Origin: Cyanobium sp. WAJ14-Wanaka
GTDB taxonomy: Bacteria; Cyanobacteriota; Cyanobacteriia; PCC-6307; Cyanobiaceae
Length of the DNA stretch: 64,000 nt
NCBI RefSeq assembly: GCF_024345375.1
Contig: NZ_JAGQAZ010000002.1
Location: 372,001-436,000, forward strand
Reading direction: 5' to 3'
Numbering within the stretch: position 1 is the first letter of the stretch; each line of letters opens with the position of its first letter. The position numbers were made by a program, and so were the translations under genes. Positions 7,064 through 55,206 of this stretch are shown in pieces. The notes beneath the pieces were generated by a model that was not told where the DNA came from, ran no database searches, and saw only the letters and a program-made list of their open reading frames with translations.

Positions 7064-7080
7064 GGGCTGGGGCAGCTGCC

Positions 7081-29961: not shown

Positions 29962-30597
29962 ATGCATCCTCTCCTCGAGCGGCGCCGCCTTTTCAGGCCA
30001 CCCTTGCCAATTACCAGGCCGGCCCTGTTCCTCGATCGCGATGGCGTGCTGATTGAAGACAGGCATCACCTCTGCGATCCAGCCCAAGTGCAGCTCTGCT
30101 CTGGGGCAAAGGCGTTGCTGCAACAGGCCCATCAGCGGGGCTGGCCGGTGGTGGTGATCACAAATCAATCGGGCATTGCTAGAGGATTGTTCGATTGGCG
30201 GGCATATGAGCTAGTCACCGAACGCCTGCTGGAGCTGCTGGGCCCAGCGGCCCCGATCGCCGCGATCTATGCCAATGGTCATGGGCCCGATGCTCCGGCC
30301 CATAGCTGGCGTAAACCCAGCCCAGCCATGCTGCAGGCGGCGGCGGTTGATTTGCAACTTGATCTGGCCACATCATTTCTGGTTGGCGATCGCCTTTGCG
30401 ACCTCCAGGCCGGGGCTGCAGCAGGGCTCTGCTGGCTAGGTCACATCAGCAGCGGTCACGGCCAGACTGAACGTCCAGCCGTGGAGCGCTGGGCATCCGA
30501 AAACCCTCATACAAATGAAGATAATGGTCTGGTGGAGATTGCTTATCTTGATTCGCTCCATCAATTCCCTGTTCACCTGCTGAACGATGCTGGATGA
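29962..30597 (+). CDS. gmhB: HAD-family heptose bisphosphate phosphatase (GmhB-like)
   Basis: 211 residues from ATG at 29962. HAD motifs are LFLDRDGVLIED (nucleophile and acid Asp), VVVITNQSGIAR (motif II), WRKPSPAMLQ (motif III Lys) and FLVGDRLCDLQAG (motif IV), in the order and spacing of D-glycero-D-manno-heptose 1,7-bisphosphate phosphatase. The zinc-loop cysteines usual in GmhB (CPHHP ... CxCRKP) are absent; the matching stretch reads YANGHGPDAPAHSWRKP. It begins the operon with GmhA-like, HldE-like and nucleotidyltransferase genes, and its stop overlaps the next start by ATGA. Phosphatase role is well supported; the exact heptose is not. Confidence 0.82.
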   Translation: MHPLLERRRLFRPPLPITRPALFLDRDGVLIEDRHHLCDPAQVQLCSGAKALLQQAHQRGWPVVVITNQSGIARGLFDWRAYELVTERLLELLGPAAPIAAIYANGHGPDAPAHSWRKPSPAMLQAAAVDLQLDLATSFLVGDRLCDLQAGAAAGLCWLGHISSGHGQTERPAVERWASENPHTNEDNGLVEIAYLDSLHQFPVHLLNDAG

Positions 30598-31826
30598 GTA
30601 ACCGCCACTGCGATGTGCTGATTCTTGGCGGCGGCATGGTGGGCCTCTGCATCGCCCATCAACTGCTGGATCGCGGCATTTCCCGCAATATCACACTGCT
30701 TGATAAGGAGCCTGAATTGGGGCTGCACAGTTCTGGGAGAAATAGCGGTGTGTTGCATGCGGGGCTCTACTATAAACCCGGCTCCCTCAAGGCCCAGGTA
30801 TGTGTGGCTGGGGCGCGCCGGCTCAGGGCCTGGGTGGAGGAGCGCCAGCTGCCGATAAATCCCTGCGGCAAGGTGATTGTGCCGCCCAGGGCCGAACTTG
30901 ATCCCCAGCTCGATCTGCTCGCCAAGCGGGGCCTGGCCAATGGGGCCCAGTTGGAGCTCTGGGACGAAATGCAATTGCACCAATTGATCCCTGAGGCCCG
31001 CACCGCCAGCGGTAGGGCCCTTTGGAGCCCAAATACCGCCGTTGTTAAGCCGATCAAGGTTGTGCAGCGCCTACAACAGGAATTGCAGGAGCAAGGCCTA
31101 CGGATTCTGCGGGGGCAGCAGCATTGGCAGGTGCAACCTCAAGCCATGCAGCTGAAGCTGCAAGACGGCTCCGTGATCAGTTATGGCCACCTATTTAATT
31201 GTTCTGGTCTGCAGGCCGATCGCGTGGCCCATCAATTTGGAGTTGGCCGCCAATACAGTCTGCTGCCGTTTAAGGGCCTCTACTGGCAGCTCAAGCCTGG
31301 ATGCCCGATCCAGCCCCGAGCCAACCTTTATCCCGTGCCCGATCTGGATGTGCCCTTCCTCGGGGTGCACTTCACCCCCAGTGCTGACCAGACCCCGCTG
31401 GTAAGCATTGGACCCACAGCTACCCCCGCTTGGGGCCGCGAAAATTACCGGGGCCTGCAGGCCGTAGAACCGGCCATGGCGGCGGCCAACGTGGCACTTC
31501 TGGCTAGGCAATATCTGGCCAACCGGGGCGGTTTTCGCCGCTACGTGCACGAGCAGGCCTTCCTTGCATTGCCACCGCTGCTGCTGGGTGCTGCGCAGCA
31601 GCTAATCCCGGCCGTGCGCCCAGAGCACCTGGAAATCAGCCAAAAGGTAGGCATCCGTTCCCAGCTGTTCAACCACAGCAGCCAGCGCCTAGAGGACGAC
31701 TTCCTCTGCCTGCCAGGCCCCGCCAGCACCCATGTGCTGAATGCCATTTCTCCGGCCTTTACGGCCAGCTTCGCCCTCGCGGATCTAATTATCGACGGGG
31801 CCGCATCCCAGATGGCCATGCCATGA
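30594..31826 (+). CDS. lhgO: FAD-dependent L-2-hydroxyglutarate oxidase family protein (LhgO-like)
   Basis: 410 residues, ATG at 30594 overlapping the previous stop. The FAD-binding start CDVLILGGGMVGLCIAHQLL has a GxGxxG-type loop. The block SSGRNSGVLHAGLYY and the C-terminal SPAFTASFALADLI are characteristic of LhgO / DAO-fold oxidases. LhgO oxidises L-2-hydroxyglutarate to 2-oxoglutarate, but here the gene lies in a sugar operon, between phosphatase and nucleotidyltransferase, so a sugar or alpha-hydroxy-acid substrate may be more apt. It is joined to both neighbours by ATGA overlaps. Confidence 0.85.
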   Translation: MSNRHCDVLILGGGMVGLCIAHQLLDRGISRNITLLDKEPELGLHSSGRNSGVLHAGLYYKPGSLKAQVCVAGARRLRAWVEERQLPINPCGKVIVPPRAELDPQLDLLAKRGLANGAQLELWDEMQLHQLIPEARTASGRALWSPNTAVVKPIKVVQRLQQELQEQGLRILRGQQHWQVQPQAMQLKLQDGSVISYGHLFNCSGLQADRVAHQFGVGRQYSLLPFKGLYWQLKPGCPIQPRANLYPVPDLDVPFLGVHFTPSADQTPLVSIGPTATPAWGRENYRGLQAVEPAMAAANVALLARQYLANRGGFRRYVHEQAFLALPPLLLGAAQQLIPAVRPEHLEISQKVGIRSQLFNHSSQRLEDDFLCLPGPASTHVLNAISPAFTASFALADLIIDGAASQMAMP

Positions 31827-32539
31827 GTAAGCCCCTGCGCGCCCTGTTGTTGGCTGCAGGGCTTGGCACTCGCCTGCGCCCCCTCACCTTGCAAACCCCT
31901 AAGTGCTTGGTGCCCCTTGGTGGTGAACCCCTGCTGGGGCTTTGGCTGCGCAAGCTGGAGCAGGCGGGCTGCGAGGCGGCCTTGATCAACACCCATTACC
32001 TAGCTGAGCAGGTGGATGCCTATCTTCAGAGCTGGCAAAGCCCAAAGATGGCAGTGCGCACCGTGCACGAGCCCGAACTGCTCGGCACTGCTGGCACCTT
32101 GCTTGCCCATCAGGCTTTTTTTGAAGGCGCAACGGGGCTATTGATCCATGCCGATAACGCCATGGCTGCGGGCTTGGCGGAATTTCTGACTGCCCACGAA
32201 AATCGCCAACCCGAATGCCTGCTCACCATGCTCACCTTCCAGAGCGATCGGCCCAGCAGCTGCGGGATTGTGCAGACCAACGGGCAAGGCGTGGTCGTAG
32301 CTTTCCATGAGAAGGTGCAGGACCCACCGGGTTCCGTTGCCAATGGGGCCCTCTATGCCTTTGACCCCGCCTTCTTCGACGTGCTTTCTCTAATGGCTCC
32401 CACACCAAACGACTTCAGTACCGAGGTGATTCCAGCTCTGATGGGCCGCATCCAAACCTGCCCCACTGACCAGCCCTATCTCGATATCGGCACCCTTGAA
32501 GCCCTCGAGCAAGCCCAGAAGCTATGGAGATCCCAGTGA
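31823..32539 (+). CDS. Sugar-phosphate nucleotidyltransferase (HddC/ManC-like)
   Basis: 238 residues, ATG overlapping the previous stop. The signature LLLAAGLGTRLRPLT plus PKCLVPLGGEPLL is the NTP-binding loop and conserved Lys of the family; LLIHADN carries the metal-binding Asp. Size and lack of a C-terminal extension match D-glycero-D-manno-heptose 1-phosphate guanylyltransferase (HddC) and small glucose-1-phosphate transferases. With GmhA- and GmhB-like neighbours, a nucleotide-heptose product is likely; the base is not determinable. Overlaps the next gene by 16 bp. Confidence 0.82.
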   Translation: MSKPLRALLLAAGLGTRLRPLTLQTPKCLVPLGGEPLLGLWLRKLEQAGCEAALINTHYLAEQVDAYLQSWQSPKMAVRTVHEPELLGTAGTLLAHQAFFEGATGLLIHADNAMAAGLAEFLTAHENRQPECLLTMLTFQSDRPSSCGIVQTNGQGVVVAFHEKVQDPPGSVANGALYAFDPAFFDVLSLMAPTPNDFSTEVIPALMGRIQTCPTDQPYLDIGTLEALEQAQKLWRSQ

Positions 32540-33150
32540 TAGCTGCCAGCACCCAAACCAGCTTTGCCCAGGCGGCAACCAGCTACCTGCAGCGGCTGCA
32601 GGGCTGTTTCAATGCGGAAACGCTTGGTGCCATTGAAACCCTTGCAGGAGAGCTGCGCTTGGCCTGGATTGAGGGCCGCCAGGTGTTTATTTGTGGCAAC
32701 GGCGGCAGCGCCGCCAATGCCCTGCACCTAGCCAACGATTTCATCTACGGCATCGGCGCCTGCGGGCTTGGCCCCAAGCTGCCGGGCTTGAGGGTGGAGG
32801 CACTGCCTGCAAATGCTGGAGTAATCACCTGCCTGGCCAATGACACCGGCTATGCCAACATTTATAGTTATCAGCTTGAAGTGAAAGCCCGCAAGGGTGA
32901 TCTGGTTATTGTGCTTTCAGGTAGCGGCAATTCTGCAAATGTGGTGCGCGCCCTAGAGACTGCTAAAACATTAAAGATGAGAAGTTTTGCTATCCTGGCC
33001 TTCAATGGGGGGCGATGTCTGGAATTGGCTGATGTGCCGATTCATTTCCCTATCGAAGATATGCAGATTGCAGAGGATACCCAGCTGGTGGTGGGTCATT
33101 TGTGTATGCAATGGCTAAACACCAACAAGCCCTCCCAAATTGAGCGATAA
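32524..33150 (+). CDS. gmhA: SIS-domain phosphoheptose isomerase (GmhA-like)
   Basis: 208 residues, ATG at 32524. The SIS core is seen in VFICGNGGSAANALHLANDF (substrate loop), then DLVIVLSGSGNSANVVRALE and a C-terminal AEDTQLVVGHLCMQWL with the conserved E-D-x-Q and H of sedoheptulose-7-phosphate isomerase. It converts sedoheptulose 7-phosphate to D-glycero-D-manno-heptose 7-phosphate, the first committed step of heptose synthesis. It overlaps the nucleotidyltransferase gene by 16 bp, so they are co-translated. Confidence 0.87.
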   Translation: MEIPVIAASTQTSFAQAATSYLQRLQGCFNAETLGAIETLAGELRLAWIEGRQVFICGNGGSAANALHLANDFIYGIGACGLGPKLPGLRVEALPANAGVITCLANDTGYANIYSYQLEVKARKGDLVIVLSGSGNSANVVRALETAKTLKMRSFAILAFNGGRCLELADVPIHFPIEDMQIAEDTQLVVGHLCMQWLNTNKPSQIER

Positions 33151-33152
33151 GC

Positions 33153-33824
33153 ATGGCAGAAATTGATTTCATGGGCGTGCTGCACAAAAGCACCCAGCGT
33201 GACTACTTGGCCCGAGTGAATGACCCGGATTACCCAAAGGCAAAGGCAGCAGAGCTAGCCAAGCAATTCGACCACGACTACTGGGATGGTGATCGACGCA
33301 TCTGCTACGGCGGCTATCGCTACATGGAAGGCCGTTGGGAAAAAGTGGCCCGGGCCTTGGTGGATCACTACCAACTACCTGAAAATCCGAAGATTTTAGA
33401 TATTGGCTGTGGTAAAGGATTTTTGCTTTACGACTTTCTGAAGGTAATTCCGGGTGCTGAGATCTACGGAATTGATCTATCCCCCTATGCCATTGCCAAT
33501 AGCAAGGAGGAGATTCGCGATCGGCTTCAGGTGGGCAATGCAACCCAGCTGCCTTGGCCTGATGATCATTTTGACTTAGTGATCTCAATTAATACCCTTC
33601 ACTGTCTGCATGCCCAAGACTTGCACCCAGCTCTTTGCGAGATGGAGCGAGTAGGGAAAGAGCACAAATACCTTTGTGTTGAGAGCTGGCGCAACCAGGC
33701 GGAGAAGGCCAATCTGCTTTATTGGCAGGTAACCTGCGAAGCCTTTAACACTCCAGAGGCTTGGCATTGGTGGTTTAAGCAAACCTGCTACAGCGGCGAT
33801 CACTCCTTTATTTATTTCGAGTGA
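33153..33824 (+). CDS. SAM-dependent methyltransferase (class I)
   Basis: 223 residues, ATG at 33153, 2 bp after the gmhA stop. Motif I ILDIGCGKGFLLYDFL, then IYGIDLSPYAIANSK and FDLVISINTLHCLHAQDLHP are standard Methyltransf_11/25 features. A C-terminal CVESWRNQAEKANLLYWQ is unusual. Probably methylates an operon intermediate or the finished sugar. The following gene starts inside its stop (GTGA). Confidence 0.83.
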   Translation: MAEIDFMGVLHKSTQRDYLARVNDPDYPKAKAAELAKQFDHDYWDGDRRICYGGYRYMEGRWEKVARALVDHYQLPENPKILDIGCGKGFLLYDFLKVIPGAEIYGIDLSPYAIANSKEEIRDRLQVGNATQLPWPDDHFDLVISINTLHCLHAQDLHPALCEMERVGKEHKYLCVESWRNQAEKANLLYWQVTCEAFNTPEAWHWWFKQTCYSGDHSFIYFE

Positions 33825-34915
33825 GCATGGGCACTGGGGCAATGCCAAATAAGGAAATACCAACCACAACCAAGGCTGCGATCTTGGTTGCCCAGCGTCA
33901 GCCCCTGGTGGTGGACACCATCGAGCTGCCAGCTGAGCTTGATGTGGGCCAGGTGTTTGTGCAGATCCAGGTGAGCGGCATCTGTGGGTCCCAGCTCGGT
34001 GAGATCGATGGGGTGAAGGGCGCTGATCGCTTCTTGCCCCACCTAATGGGCCATGAGGGCTGCGGCAGTGTTTTGGCAGTGGGCCCTGGGGTGAAGCATG
34101 TGGCCGCTGGCGACAGGGTGGTGCTGCATTGGCGCCCTGGGGCTGGGATTCAGGCTGACCCCCCTAAATATCGTTGGCGCGGCGAGCCCCTTAATGCCGG
34201 CTGGGTCACCACCTTCAATCGTCATACGGTGGTGAGTGAAAACCGCTGCACGAAGGTGCCAGCCCACATCAACCCCGATGCCGCAGCGCTGTTTGGCTGT
34301 GCCATCACCACCGGTTTTGGCGTAGTGGAAAACAATGCCCAGTTGAAGCTGGGCGAATCAGTGGTGGTGTTTGGTGCCGGCGGCATCGGCCTCAACATCG
34401 TGCAGGCTGCAGCGCTGCTATCAGCCTCTGCAATCATTGCAGTTGATCGCTTCGACAGCCGACTGGAGCTAGCCAGTGAGCTTGGAGCCACCCACTGCAT
34501 CAATAGCAGCCAGGTTGATCCCGAATCTGAAATCAGTAAGGCTCTGGCAGGCCAGCCCCTGGGCGATCAGCCCCTTGACGTTTTTATCGACAACACAGGC
34601 GTGCCAGAGGTGATTGAGCTTGGTTATCGCCTCACCCACCGCCAGGGGCGGGTGATTTTGGTGGGGGTGCCCCGGGCCGGCAGCGCCGTAAACCTCAATA
34701 CGCTGCCGCTGCATTTCGGCAAACTGCTCACGGGCTCCCATGGGGGTGAGAGCGAGCCCGCCCGCGATATCCCCCGCTATCTGCGTCTGCTGGAGCAGGG
34801 CCGCCTCAGGCTTGATCGCTTCGTGAGTGCCCGTTATCCGCTGGAGGAGATCAACACGGCCATCGATGCGATGCGCAATGGCTCCACCGCAGGCCGCGTG
34901 ATGATTGAGCTGTGA
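33821..34915 (+). CDS. Zinc-type alcohol dehydrogenase (MDR family)
   Basis: 364 residues from GTG at 33821; ATG at 33827 is equally possible. The catalytic zinc ligands are in GICGSQ (Cys) and LMGHEGCGSV (His-Glu). The NAD(P) loop is VVVFGAGGIGLNIVQAA. The four-Cys structural zinc loop of many MDR proteins is not evident. The C-terminal GRVILVGVPRAG and STAGRVMIEL are family-like. It may oxidise or reduce a sugar intermediate in the operon. Joined to both neighbours by GTGA overlaps. Confidence 0.83.
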   Translation: MSMGTGAMPNKEIPTTTKAAILVAQRQPLVVDTIELPAELDVGQVFVQIQVSGICGSQLGEIDGVKGADRFLPHLMGHEGCGSVLAVGPGVKHVAAGDRVVLHWRPGAGIQADPPKYRWRGEPLNAGWVTTFNRHTVVSENRCTKVPAHINPDAAALFGCAITTGFGVVENNAQLKLGESVVVFGAGGIGLNIVQAAALLSASAIIAVDRFDSRLELASELGATHCINSSQVDPESEISKALAGQPLGDQPLDVFIDNTGVPEVIELGYRLTHRQGRVILVGVPRAGSAVNLNTLPLHFGKLLTGSHGGESEPARDIPRYLRLLEQGRLRLDRFVSARYPLEEINTAIDAMRNGSTAGRVMIEL

Positions 34916-36408
34916 GCACCACGATGTTGCCGCTTGCTCAAGCGACTGAATGGCAGGGCTGTGTGCTCGCCTACGGCCACTTCAGCACCATCCATCCCGG
35001 CCATATCCGCTATCTGCGCCATGCTCGCAGCCTGGGTAAACAGCTTGTGGTGGCCTTGATCGGCGATGGATCAGCTGGCCAACCCAACTCCTACCCATTT
35101 AGTCAGCACGAGCGAGCAGAAGCCCTGGGCCTGCTGGGTATCGCCGATTTAATCGTGCCGCTCGAGGGTGATGACCTCGCTGCTGCCATCAGGCAGTTGC
35201 AGCCAGAAATGCTGGTGTTGGGCACCGAGCTTGAGGGCTCAGCCAGGCTTGAGCAGCCCCTGGCTCTTTTGCGGGCCCAGGGCGGCAAGGTGCAATTCCA
35301 TGCCGGAGATGTGCAATACGCCAGTAGCGAACTGCTCAATAGCACTGAGCAAGATCTAAAGCGCCAGCGCCAGGTCCAATTCAAGGCAGCCTGCCGCCGC
35401 CAGGGGCTCAGCAGGGATGATCTGCTGAGCTCGATGCAGTGCTGGCCCAACACCAGGCTGATCGTGCTGGGGGACACGATTGTGGATCAATACGTGGCCT
35501 GCGAAGCCATCGGCATGAGCGCTGAGGCACCGGTGGTGGTGGTGCGCGAGCTGGCTAAACGCAACTTCATTGGTGCGGCCGCCGTGGTGGCGGCGCACAT
35601 CCGCTCCCTTGGGGCCCAATGCGATTTGGTGTCGGTGGTGGGCCAAGACAGCACCGCTGAATTGGTGCAGCGCGAGCTGCTGGCCCAGGGCATCGGCAAC
35701 GGCCTCACCCGCGATCCATCTCGACCCACCACCTTTAAGAAGCGCTATGTGGTGGAAAACCAGAAGTTGTTCCGGGTTAGCCGGCTGGAGCAGCACAACC
35801 TGGATTCAGCCATTGAAGAGCAGGTGATCGCCCAGTTGGAAAGCCTGGCGCCCCAGGCCCAGGGCATCGTGGTGTCTGATTTTGTCTATGGGGTGGTGAC
35901 ACCCATGGTGCTGAAGGTGGTGGCGGATCTGGCCCAGCGCCATGGGCTGATGCTGTTTGGCGATCTGCAATGCAGCAGCCAGGTGGGTTCGATTAGCCGT
36001 TTCCAGCACTTTTCCCTGCTCTGCCCCAATGAACGGGAACTGCGCCTAGCCCTCCAAGACAAAGACAGTGGCCTTGAAAACCTCAGCCAGCTGCTGCTGG
36101 AAAGCACCAGTTGCGAGCGATTGTTAGTGAAGCTTGCCGCCGAAGGCTTCATTGCCTACGACCGCGACTCCCAGGGCAAGTTGACCAGCCAGCCTTTCCC
36201 GGCCCTTTCTGTTAATCCCCTTGATGTGGCAGGAGCGGGCGATTCGGTGTTGGCGGTGATGGCCACGGGCCTGGCCAGCGGCCAGGCGATGATGGCTACG
36301 GCCGCACTGGCTTGCTGTATGGCTTCCTTAGCCGTGCAAACGATGGGAAATACACCAATTCCTGCCGGTGCTCTAAAAGCCAACCTGGAGGAGGTATTGG
36401 AGCCATGA
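34912..36408 (+). CDS. HldE-like bifunctional enzyme with reversed domain order
   Basis: 498 residues, GTG overlapping the previous stop. The N-terminal domain (about 1-150) is a cytidylyl/adenylyltransferase fold: CVLAYGHFSTIHPGHIRYL has the H-x-G-H site. The C-terminal domain (about 175-498) is a PfkB-type sugar kinase: LGDTIVDQYV at its start, FIGAAAVVAAHIRSLG, and NPLDVAGAGDSVLAV with the catalytic Asp of the GAGD motif. E. coli HldE has kinase first and nucleotidyltransferase second; here the order is opposite. Kinase and nucleotidyltransfer steps on a heptose phosphate are the likely activities. Confidence 0.85.
   Translation: MSTTMLPLAQATEWQGCVLAYGHFSTIHPGHIRYLRHARSLGKQLVVALIGDGSAGQPNSYPFSQHERAEALGLLGIADLIVPLEGDDLAAAIRQLQPEMLVLGTELEGSARLEQPLALLRAQGGKVQFHAGDVQYASSELLNSTEQDLKRQRQVQFKAACRRQGLSRDDLLSSMQCWPNTRLIVLGDTIVDQYVACEAIGMSAEAPVVVVRELAKRNFIGAAAVVAAHIRSLGAQCDLVSVVGQDSTAELVQRELLAQGIGNGLTRDPSRPTTFKKRYVVENQKLFRVSRLEQHNLDSAIEEQVIAQLESLAPQAQGIVVSDFVYGVVTPMVLKVVADLAQRHGLMLFGDLQCSSQVGSISRFQHFSLLCPNERELRLALQDKDSGLENLSQLLLESTSCERLLVKLAAEGFIAYDRDSQGKLTSQPFPALSVNPLDVAGAGDSVLAVMATGLASGQAMMATAALACCMASLAVQTMGNTPIPAGALKANLEEVLEP
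36387..36394 (+). promoter_or_regulatory. Strong ribosome binding site for the epimerase gene
   Basis: GGAGGAGG lies inside the end of the HldE-like gene, 10 bp before ATG at 36405. It supports that start, not the upstream in-frame one at 36312. Confidence 0.65.
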
Positions 36409-37427
36409 ATAGCAAAAAGATCCTGGTGATCGGCAGCAACAGCTTCAGTGGCTCCCACTTTGTGGCAGAAGCCCTGCGGGGAGGCCATCAGGTTTGGGCC
36501 ACAAGCCGATCAAGGGAGCTAGATCCTGTCTTCCTGCCCTATCTCTGGCTTGATCCGGCTAGAGGGGAGCCCCTGGCCAATCAGGCAAATTTCAGCTTTC
36601 AGGCGATCGATCTCAACAGCCAGCTCAGCCAGCTGCTGGAGCTGGTTGATCGGGTGCAGCCATCCCATGTGGTGAACTTTGCCGCCCAGGGGATGGTGGC
36701 AGAAAGCTGGTTTAACCCAACCCACTGGTATCGCACCAATGTGGTGAGCCAGGTTGCCCTGCATGACGCCCTGAGGCAGCGGCCATTCTTGGAAAAATAC
36801 CTGCACGTGACCACCCCTGAGGTGTATGGCAGCACCGATGGGGGCTGGATCCGGGAACACAATCAGTTCGCCCCCAGCACCCCCTATGCCGTAAGTAGGG
36901 CGGCCTGCGATCTACATCTCCATAGCTTCCAGAAGGCCTATGGTTTCCCGGTGGTATTCACCCGGGCCGCGAATGTGTATGGCCCCGGCCAGCAGCTGTA
37001 CCGGATCATCCCCAGGGCCTTGCTCAGCGCCCGCACCGGCAAACCAATGCAGCTCCATGGCGGCGGCTATTCCGAGCGTTGTTTCATCCACATCAGTGAT
37101 GTGGTGAGGGCCACCCTCCAGCTGGCTCTGGAAGCGGAGCCGGGCAGCACTTGGCACCTATCCACCCAGGAGCCGATCAGCATCCGCGATTTGGTGGAAC
37201 GGATCTGCCAGCGCTGTGGCGTGGCATTTGATTCCGTGGTGGAAGAGAGTGGTGAGAGACTTGGTAAAGACCAAAGCTATCTGCTCGACAGCACTGCGAT
37301 CCGTGAAAAGTTTGGCTGGAGCGATCAGGTGAGGCTTGATGAGGGCTTCAGCGAAACCCTGGCCTGGGTGGATTCCCACCTCGACCAACTCCAAACCCTT
37401 CCCTGGACCTACCAACACAAAGTATGA
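36405..37427 (+). CDS. NAD-dependent epimerase/dehydratase (extended SDR)
   Basis: 340 residues from ATG at 36405, supported by GGAGGAGG 10 bp upstream and an ATGA overlap. The N-terminal ILVIGSNSFSGSHFVAEAL is the Rossmann loop. It has VVNFAAQGMVAESW (as in 4,6-dehydratases), TTPEVYGSTDGGW and the active-site segment TPYAVSRAACDLHLHSF. In this last segment the usual Y-x3-K reads Y-x3-R, a conservative but unusual change. NVYGPGQQLYRIIPRALLS and CFIHISDVVRAT match dTDP-glucose 4,6-dehydratase-type enzymes. It should act on a nucleotide sugar made by the upstream genes. Confidence 0.84.
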   Translation: MNSKKILVIGSNSFSGSHFVAEALRGGHQVWATSRSRELDPVFLPYLWLDPARGEPLANQANFSFQAIDLNSQLSQLLELVDRVQPSHVVNFAAQGMVAESWFNPTHWYRTNVVSQVALHDALRQRPFLEKYLHVTTPEVYGSTDGGWIREHNQFAPSTPYAVSRAACDLHLHSFQKAYGFPVVFTRAANVYGPGQQLYRIIPRALLSARTGKPMQLHGGGYSERCFIHISDVVRATLQLALEAEPGSTWHLSTQEPISIRDLVERICQRCGVAFDSVVEESGERLGKDQSYLLDSTAIREKFGWSDQVRLDEGFSETLAWVDSHLDQLQTLPWTYQHKV

Positions 37428-38362
37428 AACTTCTAGTTACGGGTGGCTGCGGCTACAAAGGTTCGGTGCTGGTGCCGCTGCTTCTGGCAGATGGCCATCA
37501 GGTGGTGAGCGTGGATACCCAGTGGTTTGGAAACTATCTGCCAAATCATCCTGGCCTTACCAACCTCTGCCTAGACATTCGCAACACAGACGCTATCCCG
37601 CTTGAGGGTGTGGAGGCGATCATTCACTTGGCCAACATTGCCAACGATCCTGCAGTGGAGCTCAACCCCACCCTGAGCTGGGAGGTGAACGTGCTGGCGG
37701 GTCAGCAGTTGGCCGATCGGGCGGTGCGTGCAGGCGTAAAACAGTTTATTTTTGCCAGCTCCGGCAGCGTGTATGGGGTCAAAGACGAGCCAAATGTGAC
37801 AGAGGATCTACCGCTGGTGCCGATCTCTGTTTACAACAAAACCAAAATGGTGGCCGAGCGCGTATTCCTCTCATATAGGGATCAAATGCAGGTGCATTGC
37901 ATTCGCCCGGCGACCGTATGCGGAGTGTCGCCTCGGATGAGGCTAGATGTGAGTGTGAACATGCTTAGTTATCAGGCTCTCAAGAATGGCAAGATTACGG
38001 TATTTGGAGGTGACCAAACCCGGCCCAATATCCATATTCAGGATATTGCCAATGTATATCGCCATTTTCTGGCCAATTCTGGGATTGAAAGTGGCTGTTA
38101 CAACGCTGGTTTTGAAAATATCTCGATCCTTGATATTGCAGAGCAGGTTAAAAGTAAGATTGGCGCAGAAATTGTGGTTAGCGCTTCTAATGATCCCCGT
38201 TCCTATCGCCAGGATTCCAGCAAGCTAATCGCCACGGGTTTCAAGCAAGCCCATTCCGTGGCTGATGCGATTGAAGAAATCGCCGAAGCCTTTGCTCAAA
38301 ATATGCTTCCTGATGGCGATCAGTGCTACACCGTGAAATGGATGCGGCATTTGCAATTCTAA
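37424..38362 (+). CDS. NAD-dependent epimerase/dehydratase (extended SDR)
   Basis: 312 residues, ATG overlapping the previous stop. LLVTGGCGYKGSVLVPLLL is a G-x-x-G-x-x-G Rossmann loop; FIFASSGSVYGVKDEP carries the active-site Ser, and SVYNKTKMVAERVF the Tyr-x3-Lys. The C-terminal NIHIQDIANVYRHFL is the usual dimer/sugar region. All catalytic residues are intact, unlike the preceding paralog. Probably a C4- or C3-modifying nucleotide-sugar enzyme. The next gene begins directly after its stop. Confidence 0.86.
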   Translation: MKLLVTGGCGYKGSVLVPLLLADGHQVVSVDTQWFGNYLPNHPGLTNLCLDIRNTDAIPLEGVEAIIHLANIANDPAVELNPTLSWEVNVLAGQQLADRAVRAGVKQFIFASSGSVYGVKDEPNVTEDLPLVPISVYNKTKMVAERVFLSYRDQMQVHCIRPATVCGVSPRMRLDVSVNMLSYQALKNGKITVFGGDQTRPNIHIQDIANVYRHFLANSGIESGCYNAGFENISILDIAEQVKSKIGAEIVVSASNDPRSYRQDSSKLIATGFKQAHSVADAIEEIAEAFAQNMLPDGDQCYTVKWMRHLQF

Positions 38363-40429
38363 ATGATTGAACCACTTCGGAATAATTTGAAACCTATGAA
38401 AACTCCAATAGAGCTACTTCGAGCCATGACACGGATCCGGATGGTTGAAGAAGAAATAGCAAGAAGATATCCGGAGCAGGAAATGCGCTGCCCTGTTCAT
38501 TTAAGTATTGGTCAAGAAGCTGCAGCAGTAGGTATGTGCTCTGCTCTTCAACCAACTGACTGGGCATTTTCAGGTCATCGCAATCATGCCCATTATTTGG
38601 CAAAAGGTGGAAATCTCAAGGCTATGTTGGCTGAGATTTATGGCAAAGCCACCGGCTGCTGTGGCGGCAGGGGCGGTTCAATGCACCTTAGCGACCAAGC
38701 CTGTGGATTTATTGGAGCCACTCCAATAGTAGGCAGCACTGTCCCGATTGCAGTTGGTGCTGCTCTTACTGCTAAACGTGAGGGCAGGGGAAGGGTTGTG
38801 GTTGTATTTTTAGGCGATGGTGCAATGGAGACAGGTGTTGTTCATGAAAGCCTAAATTTTGCTACATTGAAAAGCCTACCAATCCTTTTTGCCTGTGAGA
38901 ATAATTTGTATTCCGTCTACTCACCGCTAGAGGTTAGGCAACCCAAGCATAGGTCTATTTCAGGTCTTGCAGCTGGGCATGGCATTAATACAGTGCGGCT
39001 GGATGGAAATGATGTTGAAAATATTTACGCGAAGGCTGCCTCTGCCGTTGCTGAGATTCGAAAAGGAAATGGGCCTGTATTTATGGAACTTTCTACTTAT
39101 CGCTGGCTGGAACACTGTGGGCCAGGTTACGACAACAATATTGGTTATCGCACTGAAGATGAATTTCAGGAATGGAAGCTACGTGATCCGCTTCAAGTAG
39201 TCAGGCGCCAATCATCTGTTGAGCTGAAGACAGAGGAGATTAGTTTGATTCATGGAGAAATCCAGGAAGCTTTTAAGGCGGCAATTAGCGACCCGTTTCC
39301 TAGTCCTGATTCGGAAGTCCTTCATGTTTATGCACCACCAAATACTTGCGAGCCAGCACCACCGCGAGGTGATCGTCAGATTACATACGCAGAAGCTCTG
39401 CGCGAAGCCCAAGACATGTGCTTAGCCAAGTATGAAAATAGCTACTTGATGGGTCTTGGAGTGCCCGATCCTAAAGGAATATTTGGTACAACAATTGGTC
39501 TGCAGGAAAAGTTTGGAAGCGATCGTGTCTTTGATATTCCGTTATCAGAGAATGCCATGACTGGTGTAGCGATCGGCAGCGCTATTACGGGAATGCGCCC
39601 TATCCTGACACATCAGCGCCTCGACTTTGCCCTTGTTTCCATTGATCAGATTGTTAATCAAGCTGCAAAATGGCATTACATGTTTAATGGGGCAATGAGT
39701 GTGCCTTTTGTTATTCGAATGATTATTGGACGCGGTTGGGGCCAGGGTCCTCAGCACAGCCAAAGCCTGCATGCATGGTTTGCCCATATACCTGGCTTAA
39801 AAGTCGTAATGCCTTCAACACCGTATGAGGCCAAAGGTCTTCTTATTGGGGCGATCGAAGACGACAGCCCTGTTATTTTTTTGGAAAACAGGTGGCTTCA
39901 TTCAACTAAGGGAATGGTACCCGTCAATCACTATAGCCTTGAACTTGGCAAGTGTCGTATTGCAACCTACGGAACAGATATTACCCTTGTCAGCCATAGC
40001 TATGGTACAATCGAGTGCCTTGCAGCGGCGACTGAGCTTTTTAAGTATAATATTAGTGCCGAGGTAATTGACATGCGTAGCATGAATCCAATCGATTATG
40101 ATGCAATCTCACTATCTGTGGCCAAAACTCATAGGCTCTTAGTGGTTGATCACGCTGAGTCAACATGCGGGATATGCTCAGAAATAATCTCTGTCATTTC
40201 CGAAACGCTATATTCGACTCTTGTTTCTCCTCCTAAGCGCCTAAGCTTTCCGGCTTATCCCTGCCCCACATCTCATAAATTATCCATTAACTATTATATC
40301 ACATCCCGAGATATTGTTCATTCTGTATTAAGCTCATTTGGCCGCACTACTGATTATCGTGTTCCTACAGCGCCTGATTTCATGACAAGTCACGATCAAC
40401 CTAACCCTCTTTATATTGGACCATTCTAG
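38363..40429 (+). CDS. Fused alpha-beta ThDP-dependent E1 component (2-oxoacid dehydrogenase type)
   Basis: 688 residues from ATG at 38363; ATG at 38396 is a shorter option. The N-terminal half (about 1-320) is E1 alpha-like: AFSGHRNHAHYLAKGGN, GKATGCCGGRGGSMHLSD and the ThDP site GDGAMETG with ENN about 27 residues on. The C-terminal half (about 330-640) is E1 beta-like: ITYAEALREAQDMC, SENAMTGVAIGSAITGMRPI, GQGPQHSQSLHAWFAHIPGL and VVMPSTPYEAKGLL. In PDH these are two subunits; no E2 or E3 gene is present. It may transfer or cleave a two-carbon unit on a sugar. Base composition becomes AT-richer along the gene. Confidence 0.85.
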   Translation: MIEPLRNNLKPMKTPIELLRAMTRIRMVEEEIARRYPEQEMRCPVHLSIGQEAAAVGMCSALQPTDWAFSGHRNHAHYLAKGGNLKAMLAEIYGKATGCCGGRGGSMHLSDQACGFIGATPIVGSTVPIAVGAALTAKREGRGRVVVVFLGDGAMETGVVHESLNFATLKSLPILFACENNLYSVYSPLEVRQPKHRSISGLAAGHGINTVRLDGNDVENIYAKAASAVAEIRKGNGPVFMELSTYRWLEHCGPGYDNNIGYRTEDEFQEWKLRDPLQVVRRQSSVELKTEEISLIHGEIQEAFKAAISDPFPSPDSEVLHVYAPPNTCEPAPPRGDRQITYAEALREAQDMCLAKYENSYLMGLGVPDPKGIFGTTIGLQEKFGSDRVFDIPLSENAMTGVAIGSAITGMRPILTHQRLDFALVSIDQIVNQAAKWHYMFNGAMSVPFVIRMIIGRGWGQGPQHSQSLHAWFAHIPGLKVVMPSTPYEAKGLLIGAIEDDSPVIFLENRWLHSTKGMVPVNHYSLELGKCRIATYGTDITLVSHSYGTIECLAAATELFKYNISAEVIDMRSMNPIDYDAISLSVAKTHRLLVVDHAESTCGICSEIISVISETLYSTLVSPPKRLSFPAYPCPTSHKLSINYYITSRDIVHSVLSSFGRTTDYRVPTAPDFMTSHDQPNPLYIGPF

Positions 40430-40471
40430 AATCAAATTTAACAGCACACGACATTACCTAATTTTCGTCTC

Positions 40472-41242
40472 ATGACTCCTCCAAATTCTGACCTGAGGTC
40501 AAGGATAGTTCAGTTGGTTTGTGCAGGAGGAGGCGGACATATCCCGAGCAGCTTTTCCGTTATTGATATAATTGATTTGGTTTATTCTAGGTATATTACG
40601 TCGGCCGATGGTTTACACTATACCTTTACTCTGAGCAAAGGTCACGCAGCCTGCGCTTTATACAGTGTATTGCATAAATATGGATATCTTACCTCTGAGC
40701 ATCTCAATTCCTACCTTAATTATGACTCCATTCTTGGGGGGCATCCCGATAGTACTAAGGTGCCAGGAGCTGAAGCCTCGGCTGGTTCATTAGGCCATGG
40801 TCTTCCTTACACCGTAGGACGTGCCCTCGCTTCTAAGATAGCATCCACTAATGCAATTCACTTCGTATTAGTAGGCGACGGAGAGTGTCATGAAGGAACT
40901 ATCTGGGAGTCGGCTATCGTAGCCAACAATCTATCGTTAAATAACCTTATTGTACTAATTGACTACAATAAGTCGTCTGATCAAATCTGTCCTCACAACT
41001 CTTTGCTAGATCAGTTCGAGTCATTTGGCTGGAAGGTCTTTGAGGCTGACGGTCATGACACTGATGCCATATCGACCGCTCTTGCGCTAGCTGTTAATGA
41101 TTCATGTAGTAAGCCTCGTGCGATACTATTCAATACAATAAAAGGTTTCGGTGTCCCTATGCTCGAAGGCCACGGTCCATGGCACTATAAAATACCTAAT
41201 GAGGCTGAACTCACAATTATTATGAAGGCACTTGGACAATGA
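40472..41242 (+). CDS. Transketolase, N-terminal (ThDP-binding) subunit
   Basis: 256 residues, ATG at 40472. GGGGHIPSSFSVIDIIDLVY, TLSKGHAACALYSVL and HGLPYTVGRALASK are the family blocks, and VGDGECHEGTIWESAIVANN carries the ThDP GDG-x(n)-N motif; HGPWHYKIPNE ends the domain. Only the N-terminal half of a transketolase is present; the C-terminal half is the next gene, overlapping by ATGA. Such split transketolases occur in secondary-metabolite and polysaccharide clusters. The gene is AT-rich relative to the operon upstream. Confidence 0.9.
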   Translation: MTPPNSDLRSRIVQLVCAGGGGHIPSSFSVIDIIDLVYSRYITSADGLHYTFTLSKGHAACALYSVLHKYGYLTSEHLNSYLNYDSILGGHPDSTKVPGAEASAGSLGHGLPYTVGRALASKIASTNAIHFVLVGDGECHEGTIWESAIVANNLSLNNLIVLIDYNKSSDQICPHNSLLDQFESFGWKVFEADGHDTDAISTALALAVNDSCSKPRAILFNTIKGFGVPMLEGHGPWHYKIPNEAELTIIMKALGQ

Positions 41243-42168
41243 AGCAATTCCCAACCGACATGAAATCTGCGTTTCCATATGCAGTCGAGTCTATAGGTTT
41301 ACTGAGTGACAAACTAGTTGTGGTTGTTGGTGACATCGGCCACTCCGCTTTACAAGGATTTGCGAATGAATACCCCAACCGTTATTATAATCTTGGCATT
41401 CTTGAGCCAACTCTCGTATCTGTTTGTGCTGGGCTTTCCAAAGAAGGCTATATACCATTGGGTCATACTATTGCCCCATTTATCGCAGAGCGCAGCCTTG
41501 AGCAAATAAAGCTCGACTTTTGCTATCATTCGCTCCCAGGAAACCTTATTACAGTAGGTAGTGCTTTTGATTATTCAACTCTAGGATGTACCCATCATTG
41601 CTATACAGATCTTGCTCTATTGTCTTCCTACCCCAATACTGAGGCCTGCTACCCAAGTTCGCCTAATGAACTTGTCTCGCTCCTTGCTCAGAGATATGAC
41701 TCCACTAAGCTTACTTACTATCGTATGAGCAGGGCATCGCATGGCGTAAACTTCGCGGAAGTTTCTTTCGGTAAGAATATCTTAGTTAAAGCTGGCGAAG
41801 ACATAACTCTTTTGGCCTCAGGGCCTCAGCTTAAGACAGCACTTGAACTCTCTTCTCTGCTTGAATCTCAAGGACTTACCGCTGATGTCCTTTATTGCCA
41901 TACTTACAAACCTTTTGACGTTGCTTCGCTTACAGAGTCAGTTGCCAAGACTGGTAGACTCTTTGTAATTGAAGAACATATTTATTCAGGAGGGCTTTCA
42001 TCCACAGCGCTTCTTGCTGCGGTAAAAGCTGTTCCATCTCTTAGGTTTGACTGCCATTGCATTCCAGATCTTTTTATCAGGAAATACGGTAAGTACTCCG
42101 AGATTTGTGAAGGCCTAGGTTTTTCTTCTACTTCACTTTACTCAAAAGTGGTTTCACTAATACGCTAA
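41239..42168 (+). CDS. Transketolase, C-terminal (pyrimidine-binding) subunit
   Basis: 309 residues, ATG overlapping the previous stop (41239-41242). VVGDIGHSALQGFANEYPNR and YYNLGILEPTLVSVCAGLSK carry the glutamate that activates ThDP (in GILE). HTIAPFIAERSLEQIKLDF and a C-terminal LLASGPQLKTALELSSLLES segment complete the Transketolase_C fold. With the preceding gene it should form one ThDP enzyme moving two-carbon ketol units, for example supplying or elongating a C5-C7 sugar. Confidence 0.9.
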   Translation: MKQFPTDMKSAFPYAVESIGLLSDKLVVVVGDIGHSALQGFANEYPNRYYNLGILEPTLVSVCAGLSKEGYIPLGHTIAPFIAERSLEQIKLDFCYHSLPGNLITVGSAFDYSTLGCTHHCYTDLALLSSYPNTEACYPSSPNELVSLLAQRYDSTKLTYYRMSRASHGVNFAEVSFGKNILVKAGEDITLLASGPQLKTALELSSLLESQGLTADVLYCHTYKPFDVASLTESVAKTGRLFVIEEHIYSGGLSSTALLAAVKAVPSLRFDCHCIPDLFIRKYGKYSEICEGLGFSSTSLYSKVVSLIR

Positions 42169-42322
42169 TATCTTTCGTAATCTCTATTGTCCAATCCGCA
42201 ATTATTATGGAGTGGAGATGTATTAATGATACTAGTGATTTCTTTTGATTCTCCCCCTCGAGCTCCCTGTCTTAGGGAGGACGTTGCTTCCCTTTGATCA
42301 GTACACCCGAGGACATGTAACA

Positions 42323-43160
42323 ATGAGTATCCGTCGTTATAGCTAGGGTGTAAGGGATAATTTGAGACGGCGAGTGAGTCTTCTCATTGCGGCAGAAAGT
42401 GTTCCGGGTTTAAAAGGAACTGGTCACTCATGTAGTGACTATCTACAACTGGGAGATGACCTAGCGGTTGCAGGGGAGGTTGGTCCTACATCCGATACGG
42501 AACCAGATGTTGGAATTCTGCAGACATGTTCCTGTTGGAGACGGCTGGCCTAAAAGGCATGTGTTCAGCTGCTACTGCAATGAGCGAATCCTGTTGCCTG
42601 AGCTGGTTGAAAGGTGGCTGCAGACTTCCCATGATGCCGATTAAAAGCCTGTGCTCATCTTGAAAAAGTAAAAGGGAGCTCGAGATGCTCCGCGTCTAAG
42701 ACCAAAGGGAAATCAAGGCTCTATATAGAGCGCTGCAGAACAAAGACTACATAATAGGGAGAATAGTTGCCTTGTTGGTCCTGTGACAAAAGTTTTAAGT
42801 CGTCTGGCAAAGCAACGCCGAAGGCTAGCCAACGCTGACTATCTCGTGTTTCAAACTACAACTACTACTCCGAATCGTTGTTCCGAAAGGTCAGATATTG
42901 GCCCGGCCACCCCAGCCGGCATTTGCTAGCAATAAAGATGGCTGCCAGTTAGTCGTAGTTTTTGTGAATTTTTACCACCACCATCACTGCCATAGCGGCT
43001 TCAAACTCCTGATGTCATATGCGTGTTACAATTGCAACGGCATGGACATTTGTCAGTAGGATGGCGATGTTTATCAAACAGTTCGCTGTGCCAATCCAAC
43101 GCGCTTGAGCAGAATACCCACTGCTGTAGTCAGCCCCATGGTGTATTGTCAACAAGCAAG
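42323..43160 (+). pseudogene. Decayed IS3-type element (orfA plus orfB C-terminus), internally deleted
   Basis: Starts with MSIRRYS at 42323, a typical IS3 orfA beginning, then a stop. Further pieces in shifted frames read YNWEMT*RLQG (about 42450), FSCYCNERILLPELVERWLQ (about 42570-42630) and LQNKDYII...ALLVL (about 42730-42775). From about 42845 orfB C-terminal pieces follow: RVSNYNYYSESLFRKV and NFYHHHHCHSGFKLL, then GMDIC. The central catalytic part of orfB is missing. The element matches the copies at 51.9-53.3 and 54.6-55.1 kb. The surrounding 42169-43274 gap holds no intact gene. Confidence 0.72.
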
Positions 43161-43274
43161 CAAAGGAGCGTATTCCATTAACGAGCTACACTTAATAGAG
43201 GTTGCTTGAAGGCATCCTAGGAGTGACAGCTTTCCTTAATGTCATCGATTCTTCACTAACCTTTATTATTGGCT

Positions 43275-50061: not shown

Positions 50062-51234
50062 GCTTTAAGCTTTATCTAAATAGTTTTTCTCGATATTTGT
50101 CTTAGCGTCTTTCTCGGCCATGGTTATTAAATATTTTTGACTGCCCAGTCATTCTCCAGTAGACATCAGGGATTGCTTGTTCAATATTATTTAGATTTTT
50201 CTTTTTTATCATCCACCCCGCCTGAATGGCAGCAGAGTATTGGCATCTTTGCTTAATTTCACCTGATCAGCTCCCATATTCTCATCGGATCGAGTGAATG
50301 CAGAATCGTTTATGCAGTCTTTTCACCACCGACCGCAGGACCGCAAATATTGCTGTAAAGAGCTGGTTTGAGTGGCATTGGGCCTCCCTAGCGAGCTAAA
50401 TCTCACGGTCTTAGTCCCTCCTGTCCCAATAGGTCACCGCAGGCGGATTTGTTTTGGCAATCCTTCTCGATTTATGCGGATGCTGCTGATAGACAGGTAC
50501 CTAGTTACGTTCCGCTACCCTTGTGAAGGAGCGTTGTAGTGATCAGTTCCACGCTACAGGCCCTGTTCGGACAGCTCCCCTTTTTTTGATCGGGACGTCC
50601 TGGCACTGAGCTCTTAATTCGTGTCAAGCCTTTTACGCTCCACCTCAGCCTTTGCTGTGAAAAGGATCTGTCGTTTTCCTCGAACTGGCTGAAAGTTCGT
50701 GGGAAGAGTGTGGGCTGGTTGTTCTTGCCATTCAGGTTGACGCTGGCAACCTACTCGAGGCACCAGAGAAAAATGCCTGCCTAGTTCGAAGCGCACCCAC
50801 CTTGTTCGGTTTCCCTTTCAGATCCATTGTGCTCTGGAGCTCGCTTAGCGCCACTTCCCTTTCTTGATTGATGGGTGATGCCATCATCCCTTACAATAGC
50901 GAAGTCAAGCACAGTCGCCTAAATTTGTTAAAGTTTTGGGCCCAATAAACTGAAGCAGCCTTATGAGGGCATCCTTATAGGCCAGGTTTTGCCAGTGGAT
51001 GCCCTATCAAAAGGATACGCTACAGCCCCGATCTTAGTATTTTCAAGCTATCTACTTCTGATCAGGTCATTAATCAAGCCTGGATCTTATCTGATGCCTG
51101 TCCAGCTTTGGCATTCTCTGCAGTTATACACCATTGCTGGCATTATTTGCATTCAGGATTAATCAAACTGTGGCCAAGACGCCTCATGGAGTTGGACTTG
51201 GATAACACCCGATCAGGCGATTGATTGCAGCCGC
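50062..51234. other. Gene-free stretch in the IS graveyard
   Basis: About 1.2 kb after the last island gene with no credible coding frame: short frames are broken by stops in all six directions. The composition is intermediate and the sequence has the mutated look of decayed transposons, but I recognise no specific element here, unlike the stretch to its right. Confidence 0.5.
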
Positions 51235-51720
51235 TGTACTGGACAAAGCCATGTTCAAAGAGCTTGCCTAGGCAAACTTTTAAGCAAGCATCTTCGATCT
51301 AGAGCCATTGTTTTTATGCAGGCTAGATCCTTGGTTTTGCATCGACGAGCCTGCCGATCAACTTCCCAAATCCAAAAGCAAGTTGCGTCCGTTATCCTCG
51401 TTTGCATCGAAGAGTCGATGCTACTGCATCAACGCTAGTTAATTCTTGATCTTGTCTGTTGTCATGTGTGATTAGGCGGCAGCTGGCCTACTGGCGGGAT
51501 TTGATGTCTATATCGTCAATCACAATCGGGTGCAATTGATCTGGGTGGAGGTGGCCCAGGCGGCCTCTGCCACACAATCGGAATTATGTAAGGCCCACAG
51601 ATTACTCTGTGGAGATATTAAGTGCTGATTACCCGCACCACGTCTGGTTAATCGATTTCCAATCCGACCAGACAATTGAAGGTCACACACTCATTTTCCT
51701 GAATTTCCTGGTTGAATACA
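51235..51720 (+). pseudogene. Decayed IS3-family transposase (IS407-like group)
   Basis: Pieces in shifting frames follow the usual orfA/orfB order: AAVLDKAMFKELA (orfA end, about 51235), FDVYIVNHNRVQLIW (about 51510) and SADYPHHVWLIDFQSDQTIE (about 51620-51680), the last matching the Y-P-x-H-V-W-x-x-D-F start of the DDE domain. Stops and frameshifts separate them. It is a different IS3 subgroup from the element that follows. Confidence 0.55.
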
Positions 51721-51879
51721 TACTTGCCCCATTTCCAAGAAAGTTAACGTCTCTCCATTCCTACAACTTTCCCCCTGTGGACTTGATGGAGCCCTGCAAT
51801 ACGTTCCTTCAGCTGTGCGGTCAAGGCTGATGTTAGAAGGCTGACGACGACGTCGCACCGGTAGAGCGTAGCCCGGATT

Positions 51880-53330
51880 TCAGCTGAACTTGGCATTCAT
51901 GTAGTCACCTTCTATAACTTCTCGAGGACCTAGCGATTGCAGTTGGTCGTAGTGCCGGCATCGGAGAAGGATCCGAGGTCTGAGATTCCACCGACAAGTT
52001 CACGGTGGAGCTGAAGACCGTTGGGTTGATTGCCACTGAACTCAGCTTCTATTGCCGTGAGCGGATCTTATTTACCGAGCAGTTAGACCGCTGGCGCCAG
52101 GCATCCCAGAATTCGAACGAAAAGCTAGTGCTCATATTGAATGCAATAACTCCAAATCCTACACCAGGAGAACCAGCGGGCGAACATCCGGCTGCTAAAG
52201 GAGCTGCGCCGAAAGGACATGGCGCAGGCGGAGGAGGCAGCACTGCTGATTGCCTCAAAAATGATCAGACCTTCTTGGTAGAGGTCGTGGAAGTTTGACT
52301 TCGCCTGATGACCTCATTAAGGCCTTGTAGTTTATCTGGGAGGGCATGGCCAATGGTGACCGTGTCAGTGAGCTGGCCTGGCACTCTGTGTGGGGCTCAC
52401 TACGCTGCAGCACTAGCACAGCCAGTCTCAGGTGTCGTTGTGGTGTTGAGCGGCAGAATTGCAGTCACCGCTAAGTAGTCAACCGCCTTACCAAATCAGA
52501 ACGTCAGCGGATCTTACTCGCCTACAACGAGACTAGATTCGCGGCTCAACCGCCAGGTTAGATTGTACGAGTGCTTTCGGACTGTGGACTATATGTTTAG
52601 TTCTTCGCGCATTTTAAACTGGTAATACATGCCTACAGCCAGGCCCATCGTCATGGTCGGGCAAGTATCCCAGGATCCACGCCTAATGCAGAGTCTAAGA
52701 GTGGCAGGTCCTAATTAAGTGTGTAGCTGTGACATCACCTAACTTCCCACTATCTTGCTTGGGATCTGGCTGTATCTTTATGTGGTGATAGACGTCTGGA
52801 GCCGCAAGGGGATGGCTTGGTGGGGCGCCGAACGAGAAATTCCATCCATTACAGCAGATCTCGTGAGCATGTTTTGCTTGCGCAAGCGAATCAGTCGGGG
52901 TCGCATGCTGCCGCTGATCCTTTATAACGGCAATGTTAATGCCCTGCTTGCCGCCACACTGGCATGTTGGCTGAAGGAACTTGGCGTGCTAAAATTTTTC
53001 TACAGGTAGATGTTATCCAATGATAACCCCTACTCTTAATCGTTTATCTGCACAGCGAAGTACGGGCTTGATTACCCATGTAAACGGTTAATTAGCAAGA
53101 ACGAGTCCTGTCAGTGGGTAGCGTCATTTGTTGTCAGGAATTAGCACCCGTACTGCTAAAGCGACATCTAGTTTGTGACGACAGAGCAACGTAACTGCGG
53201 CCAGGCTGTAGAGACCTGTCGACGCCGTGCTGTCGTCTAATAACAAGCTCACAAGTACATTCCAAGGTGATACTTAAGAGTGACTCCCTGTTCGCGTCAG
53301 CTGGAGGTTGTCTTGATCAAACTACCACTA
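51880..53330 (+). pseudogene. Decayed IS3-family element, nearly full orfA-orfB
   Basis: OrfA pieces AELGIHVVTFYN (about 51885) and LNSASIAVSGSY/CRERILFTEQLDRWRQ (about 52045-52095) are followed by orfB pieces SERQRILLAYNETRFA (about 52500), LGIWLYLYVVIDVWSRKGMA (52760-52815, the first DDE Asp region) and ERISRGR-like (about 52890). The C-terminal WVASFV and RQLEVVLIKLPLP lie to about 53330. Frames shift several times and stops occur in all, so it is inactive. Confidence 0.75.
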
Positions 53331-53396
53331 CCGTGAGTAGAGGCTATGAATGTTTCGTTGATGATGCTCCTGCCCCAGGGCTGATTCAAAGTCTCA

Positions 53397-54533: not shown

Positions 54534-54599
54534 AGAGAGGAGGCGATTCCGCCGTCCTCAACTCATGCTGACAGCACTGGCAAGAATGCCCATGACAGA

Positions 54600-54931: not shown

Positions 54932-54954
54932 ACAGCAGCAGAGGCGTCATCTTT

Positions 54955-55060: not shown

Positions 55061-55206
55061 TGAGTGAATTTTGTCTCAGCTTGCTGTTTCGTTTTTCAGG
55101 AGGCCATACGTAGTCTTAAGAATGTCTGAATAATTTAACCCAGGTTCAATGCAAAACCACCTATACGTTGATTTGATGCTCTTGCTTGTGGTTTTTGATG
55201 CACAGG

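Follow-up and report, generated by a model that had tools for sequence, protein, structure and literature searches.

We investigated a putative sugar-biosynthesis operon in a 64,000-nt stretch of contig NZ_JAGQAZ010000002.1 of Cyanobium sp. WAJ14-Wanaka (hereafter the window, in which all operon coordinates are positions). Nine co-directional genes with mostly 4-bp overlaps, reported in an initial annotation at 29962-38362, were confirmed; all lie on the forward strand and are nearly gapless, with successive junctions of -4, -4, -16, +2, -4, -4, -4 and -4 bp, and Pfam and NCBIfam agree with their broad classes. In order, they encode a GmhB-like HAD phosphatase, a candidate heptose-bisphosphate 7-phosphatase (29962..30597, with ATG at 29962; PRK08942, E 3e-29, below cut-off); an LhgO-like L-2-hydroxyglutarate oxidase, the proposed alpha-ketoglutarate recycler (30594..31826); a sugar-1-phosphate nucleotidylyltransferase (31823..32539; PF00483, E 1e-31); a GmhA-like sedoheptulose-7-phosphate isomerase candidate (32524..33150; SIS_2, with GmhA proteins as best solved relatives); an S-adenosylmethionine-type methyltransferase (33153..33824; PF13847/PF08241); a zinc-type MDR dehydrogenase (33821..34915; PF00107/PF08240); an HldE-like fusion of a nucleotidyltransferase and a PfkB kinase (34912..36408; rfaE_dom_II at 15-143, rfaE_dom_I at 180-490); SDR1, an RmlB-like extended SDR with a non-canonical active site (36405..37427; TIGR01181-like, below cut-off); and SDR2, a Cj1427-type dehydrogenase proposed to form a 4-keto-heptose (37424..38362).

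The nine genes are real, but the operon is longer than first described, and continues past 38362 to 42168, again on the forward strand. A fused E1 alpha-beta thiamine enzyme of the alpha-keto acid dehydrogenase 2 type, a candidate carboligase for an acetyl branch (38363..40429; PF00676, PF02779, PF02780), begins 0 bp after the SDR2 stop codon, and is followed by a split transketolase, with a thiamine pyrophosphate-binding N half (TKN; 40472..41242; PF00456, E 3e-32) and a pyrimidine/C-terminal half (TKC; 41239..42168; PF02779, PF02780) whose first 4 bp lie within the N half. GC content at third codon positions (GC3) is 0.56-0.71 across the nine genes; for E1 and the two transketolase halves it is 0.35-0.39, and the sharp step, from 0.56 down to 0.38, coincides exactly with the SDR2/E1 junction. 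The end point at 38362 is a compositional seam, not the end of the operon.

Relatives repeat the gene set in nearly the same order, at approximately 60-90% identity, indicating that the arrangement is more than chance. The genome (2.14 Mb) is picocyanobacterium-like, with close relatives that include Prochlorococcus and Synechococcaceae records, and, among 16 genomes from the genus, SDR2 was found in a single one, which fits the expectation for a variable surface-glycan locus. Upstream, at approximately 25.6-26.8 kb, a GT9 heptosyltransferase-family gene is located among other glycosyltransferases. Promoter and terminator scans gave signals no better than those of shuffled sequence.

For the heptose-phosphate enzymes, every protein of the Gmh, Hld and Hdd types falls short of its NCBIfam equivalog or subfamily cut-off, with scores of 80 against 149.6 bits (GmhB-like), 103 against 209 (GmhA-like), 199 against 345 (HldE kinase) and 50 against 300 (HddC). 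Because of these scores the canonical HldE/GmhB/GmhA and HddC assignments were dropped; the GmhB-, GmhA- and HldE-like names given initially stand as broad classes, and HddC-like proved too specific for a nucleotidyltransferase of generic similarity. The HldE-like protein has a reversed domain order, with the nucleotidyltransferase first, and its HxGH and GAGD motifs are kept in 46 homologues. The GxGxRLxPxTxxxPK motif of the nucleotidylyltransferase is intact. The GmhB-like protein contains the DxDG motif, and the Cys pairs of the GmhB zinc loop are absent. His68 and His192 of the GmhA-like protein are conserved in 59 homologues, as are D72 and E184, which occupy two further metal-site positions. 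The scores below curated cut-offs, the conservative differences at the GmhA metal site and the missing zinc-loop cysteines would all fit a substrate that is not a heptose, with the GmhA, HldE and GmhB homologues serving another phosphosugar; we regard this as quite unlikely, given that an isomerase, a C1 kinase and a 7-phosphatase co-occur as in heptose pathways, and that SDR2 is closest to a heptose dehydrogenase.

We could not find a second HldE-like gene in the genome, where the sole other match is weak (38 bits), nor an HldD 6-epimerase (best match 86 of 274.6 bits). Thus, the operon is the only heptose route detected, and it is not the ordinary ADP-heptose route. No GHMP-type kinase HddA is present in the operon, the kinase there being of the PfkB family; the rest of the genome was not searched for HddA. 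Cyanobacterial lipopolysaccharide (LPS) is reported to lack heptose (PMC4515613), so that, with no other HldE-like gene and no HldD in the genome, a heptose-derived surface sugar would be unexpected in this organism.

SDR2 is most similar among solved structures to 6vo6 (E 2e-34; next best E 4e-22), which is named Cj1427 in the structure library, and six Cj1427 chains occupy Foldseek ranks 1-6 for its AlphaFold model (pLDDT 86). Its Ser-Tyr-Lys catalytic set (S113, Y137 and K141) is invariant in 92 sequences. Cj1427 turns GDP-heptose into a 4-keto sugar, and binds NADH tightly, which alpha-ketoglutarate re-oxidises, yielding L-2-hydroxyglutarate (PMC10680097). From sequence and model we propose that SDR2 is a dehydrogenase of this type, which would oxidise C4 of a nucleotide heptose with L-2-hydroxyglutarate as by-product. 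SDR1, in contrast to a normal dTDP-glucose 4,6-dehydratase, carries TPE for TDE and YxxxR/H for YxxxK in 67 of 69 homologues, and was rejected as such an enzyme since the catalytic Asp and Lys positions are replaced in nearly all of them.

The LhgO-like protein scores just under the PRK11728 NCBIfam equivalog cut-off (279.6 of 299 bits). Its best solved relative is Drosophila L2HGDH (8w75, E 4e-47), in which the substrate site comprises Ser88, His92, Tyr289, His302, Arg393 and Leu299, a set that is only partly retained in GlpO and DAAO, which have other substrates (PMC10726252). All six residues are kept in the window protein, as S51, H55, Y246, L256, H259 and R355 (corresponding to S88, H92, Y289, L299, H302 and R393; numbering hand-counted from the alignment with the Drosophila protein). 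Set against the shortfall at the equivalog cut-off, this suggests a protein that is LhgO-like by score and probably works as LhgO.

We identified a close physical association between LhgO and SDR2. In 291 genomes of cyanobacteria, LhgO lies within 10 kb of 42 of 52 SDR2 homologues (at least 35% identity), on the same strand in every one of the 42, compared with four of 146 SDR1 homologues in the same genomes, all four coming from the clusters themselves (the control was counted by eye from tables). The difference is large (Fisher p ~1e-28, a value in which kinship between species overstates independence), and presence and absence across the 291 genomes are distributed as 44/2/22/223. Many of the linked pairs belong to a second, distant SDR2 group, at 35-39% identity, and in the case examined from this group (L045) the pair lies beside a CDP-glucose synthase, which suggests that the LhgO-SDR2 pairing is not specific to heptose. 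Because the L-2-hydroxyglutarate site is complete and the gene is physically linked to a Cj1427-type dehydrogenase, LhgO most likely restores alpha-ketoglutarate and removes the by-product, and does not oxidise the sugar. An oxidase acting on the sugar, as initially annotated, was accordingly set aside as less likely.

We additionally noted variant arrangements of LhgO in related loci. In L036 (G233:C1:506474-507895), one 489-aa frame joins an N-terminal LhgO part to an SDR2 truncated at its start; the two proposed partners may be fused here, or the frame may be what a deletion left behind. In L053 (8063-12617), LhgO begins 5 bp downstream of a Gfo/Idh sugar dehydrogenase, and genes for an SDR and a PseC-like aminotransferase come after it; the LhgO-SDR-aminotransferase part is shared by L055 and L056. 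The Gfo/Idh family includes the alpha-ketoglutarate-using WbpB, and LhgO may serve unrelated ketone-forming dehydrogenases too.

Both thiamine enzymes downstream retain cofactor motifs, the E1 having intact GDG...N and catalytic-Glu motifs and TKN an intact GDG...N. In a sample of 79 SDR2 loci from genome contigs of several phyla, E1 or split-transketolase genes were found near SDR2 in 71, and split-transketolase genes in 41; SDR1 was present in 69, the methyltransferase and GmhA in 64 each, and the MDR in 53, the methyltransferase and MDR usually accompanying the thiamine branching module. These extra genes travel with the operon in many genomes, in support of the earlier view that the operon is dedicated to a modified nucleotide heptose and includes additional tailoring functions. 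Acetyl transfer to C3 or C4 of keto sugars is known for E1-type enzymes, and hydroxyacetyl transfer has been proposed for split transketolases (PMC12247030; PMC4425429). In the simplest reading of these sequences, the SDR2 ketone would be the acceptor for the thiamine enzymes, and their recurrence with SDR2 in 71/79 loci points to a two-carbon addition at the sugar ketone, giving a branched tertiary alcohol. We also considered pathways of the yersiniose, erwiniose and caryophyllose type, which use YerE-like decarboxylases with characterised cases acting on a 3,6-dideoxy-4-keto-hexose (PMC12247030), and rejected them, as no YerE-like gene was present among the operon genes scanned.

The product inferred initially, an oxidised and methylated heptose, is therefore incomplete, as it misses the thiamine carboligases 0 bp downstream, which predict a carbon-branched sugar. 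That the oxidase, MDR and methyltransferase would act on the sugar to give such an unbranched heptose now appears highly doubtful: the gene arrangement implies co-transcription, and minimal relatives such as L037 consist of the heptose core and SDR2, with no thiamine genes recognised in the stretch read, but this explanation has to contend with both the complete L-2-hydroxyglutarate site of LhgO and the thiamine genes that accompany SDR2 in most of the sample.

The thiamine genes occur as two alternating cassettes. One is TKN-TKC-HAD200-APH320, usually accompanied by the methyltransferase and MDR; the other is E1, to which a second transketolase subtype is sometimes added. The window transketolase is of the E1-linked subtype, with 47-50% identity to L088, L099 and L114, and approximately 34-40% to the other subtype. 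The closest relative found (L073, SDR2 91% identical) carries the other cassette directly after SDR2, and thiamine cassettes thus appear to be exchanged at the SDR2 boundary. The different module in this relative, and the GC3 break at precisely this junction, would also be expected if LhgO recycles the co-substrate while the E1 and transketolase genes form a separate, neighbouring sugar pathway joined by chance; we consider this unlikely, as the junction is 0 bp and SDR2 followed by E1 or transketolase recurs in independent lineages, which fits the exchange of functional modules.

In one related cluster, L033, we identified the conserved pair that lies next to the split transketolase, an HAD-like phosphatase of approximately 200 aa (6749-7354) and an APH-like kinase of approximately 320 aa (5817-6779), both on the reverse strand; neither matched a Pfam or NCBIfam model at the thresholds applied. 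The place of the MDR is taken in this cluster by two "sporadic carbohydrate cluster" proteins, TIGR04323 and TIGR04324 (12802-14078, reverse strand), the latter a 2OG-Fe(II) oxygenase; neither family was found in the window operon.

Drawing on gene order, protein families, active-site residues, linkage and conservation, we think it reasonably probable that the operon turns sedoheptulose 7-phosphate into a higher sugar that is carbon-branched and nucleotide-activated, with LhgO recycling alpha-ketoglutarate for SDR2. The product is probably destined for O-antigen or another surface glycan. In the proposed pathway, the GmhA-like protein would isomerise sedoheptulose 7-phosphate, the PfkB domain of the HldE-like protein would phosphorylate C1, the GmhB-like phosphatase would take off the C7 phosphate, and one of the two nucleotidyltransferases would activate the sugar. 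SDR2 would oxidise C4 to a ketone, with alpha-ketoglutarate re-oxidising the bound NADH and L-2-hydroxyglutarate being released, and LhgO would return this to alpha-ketoglutarate, with, for example, quinone accepting the electrons. A two-carbon unit would be placed on the keto carbon by the E1-like enzyme with pyruvate as donor, by the split transketolase with a ketose as donor, or by both, to give the branched tertiary alcohol, and SDR1, the MDR and the methyltransferase would complete the branch.

Several observations weigh against this pathway. LhgO is linked in only nine of the 79 loci, so that other bacteria would need an LhgO elsewhere in the genome; similarly, six of the 13 closer cyanobacterial SDR2 homologues have no LhgO within 10 kb, and one of these six genomes (G039) shows no LhgO. 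With two nucleotidyltransferase domains, more than one activating nucleotide would be possible, and SDR1, which lacks canonical dehydratase residues, can be given only a tentative role. Separate acquisition of the E1 and transketolase genes is another possible reading of the GC break at SDR2/E1.

We identified a homologous cluster of eleven genes in Bradyrhizobium sp. BTAi1 (L124), in the order HldE-NTPT-SDR2-GmhA-SDR1-TKN-TKC-MDR-HAD-APH-MT (NTPT, nucleotidyltransferase; MT, methyltransferase), with a Wzy_C O-antigen ligase-family gene approximately 36 kb from SDR1. Identity to the window is 52% for SDR1 (its single strong match in BTAi1, a homologue of a gdh cluster gene), 63% for SDR2 and 54% for GmhA, versus 38% for the transketolase, which is of a different subtype. 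An 11-gene cluster has been reported as required for the bradyrhizose O-antigen, with polar effects not excluded, in a study that called the bradyrhizose biosynthesis genes unknown and only pointed to the cluster (Busset et al. 2016; PMC4743980). From gene number, annotation and distance, we infer that the BTAi1 cluster is this gdh cluster. Its HldE, NTPT, SDR2, GmhA, SDR1, transketolase pair, MDR and methyltransferase are homologous to those of the window, which differs in having LhgO, GmhB, a fused E1 and another transketolase subtype, and in lacking the HAD200/APH320 pair. Because tblastn with both HAD200 and APH320 gave no match in the window, we have not classed the operon as a bradyrhizose cluster.

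Bradyrhizose is a ten-carbon sugar in which the C1 aldehyde can form a ring with hydroxyl 4, 5 or 9 (PMC9912281). From the ring sizes that these three closures require, C9 should be bonded to C4, the position at which a two-carbon addition to a C4 ketone would place it. Seven carbons, plus two, plus one methyl give the ten of bradyrhizose, the methyl assignment being arithmetic, not evidence; the window product may exceed this count, with both E1 and transketolase present. We tentatively suggest, as a possibility we do not favour strongly, that the operon is one of a class of modular, widely distributed pathways making C4-branched or carbocycle-fused higher sugars from nucleoside diphosphate-heptose, bradyrhizose included, in which a Cj1427-type enzyme would form the C4 ketone, an exchangeable thiamine cassette would add the branch, a C-methyltransferase would add one carbon, and, in cyanobacteria, LhgO would sustain the dehydrogenase.

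Other known systems share parts of this arrangement. Campylobacter jejuni likewise has a Cj1427-like SDR beside heptose-phosphate enzymes, and 4-keto-heptose and L-2-hydroxyglutarate are the predicted products here too; the window has a PfkB/HldE-type kinase in place of the GHMP kinase HddA, adds a dedicated LhgO and thiamine carboligases, and has no clear C3/C5 epimerase gene. In Pseudomonas aeruginosa LPS synthesis, WbpB makes D-2-hydroxyglutarate and loss of D2HGDH reduces O-antigen (PMC8651671). There too alpha-ketoglutarate re-oxidises a sugar dehydrogenase and a flavoenzyme removes the 2-hydroxyglutarate, whereas the proposed window system has the opposite enantiomer, an unrelated dehydrogenase family and a recycler inside the sugar operon. 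The actinomycete antibiotics avilamycin, paulomycin and miharamycin similarly pair an E1-like (alpha-keto acid dehydrogenase 2) enzyme or a split transketolase with keto-sugar formation; the window type, in contrast, occurs in surface-sugar clusters of cyanobacteria and other phyla, with a heptose-type backbone, and its E1 alpha and beta are fused.

The only 13 split-transketolase candidates for ketone branching listed in a 2025 review all come from Streptomyces, and in vitro tests had been made on none of them; with split transketolases in 41/79 of our loci, ketone acceptance by these enzymes becomes testable. The origin of bradyrhizose, and of comparable surface sugars that are branched or fused to inositol, becomes directly testable as well, and the occurrence of an LhgO gene in polysaccharide operons would be explained as that of a local co-substrate recycler.

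Finally, we noted several features downstream of the operon, where an Rfam scan (42.1-64 kb) and a tRNA scan gave no matches. Approximately 1.1 kb between TKC and the next open reading frame (ORF; 42169-43268) holds no convincing gene. An 84-nt stretch (42390-42473) recurs with 71% identity at 51859-51942, which points to decayed copies of a mobile element flanking a gene block at 43-50 kb. The 5 kb at 50062-55206 contain no ATG/GTG/TTG ORF of at least 120 aa and no Rfam or tRNA match; apparent broken transposase frames were picked out there by eye, and a 21-nt inverted repeat has its two arms at 53374-53394 and 54597-54617. At 57763-59761, on the reverse strand, a low-GC block contains genes for two adjacent radical SAM/SPASM proteins next to an epimerase-like gene.

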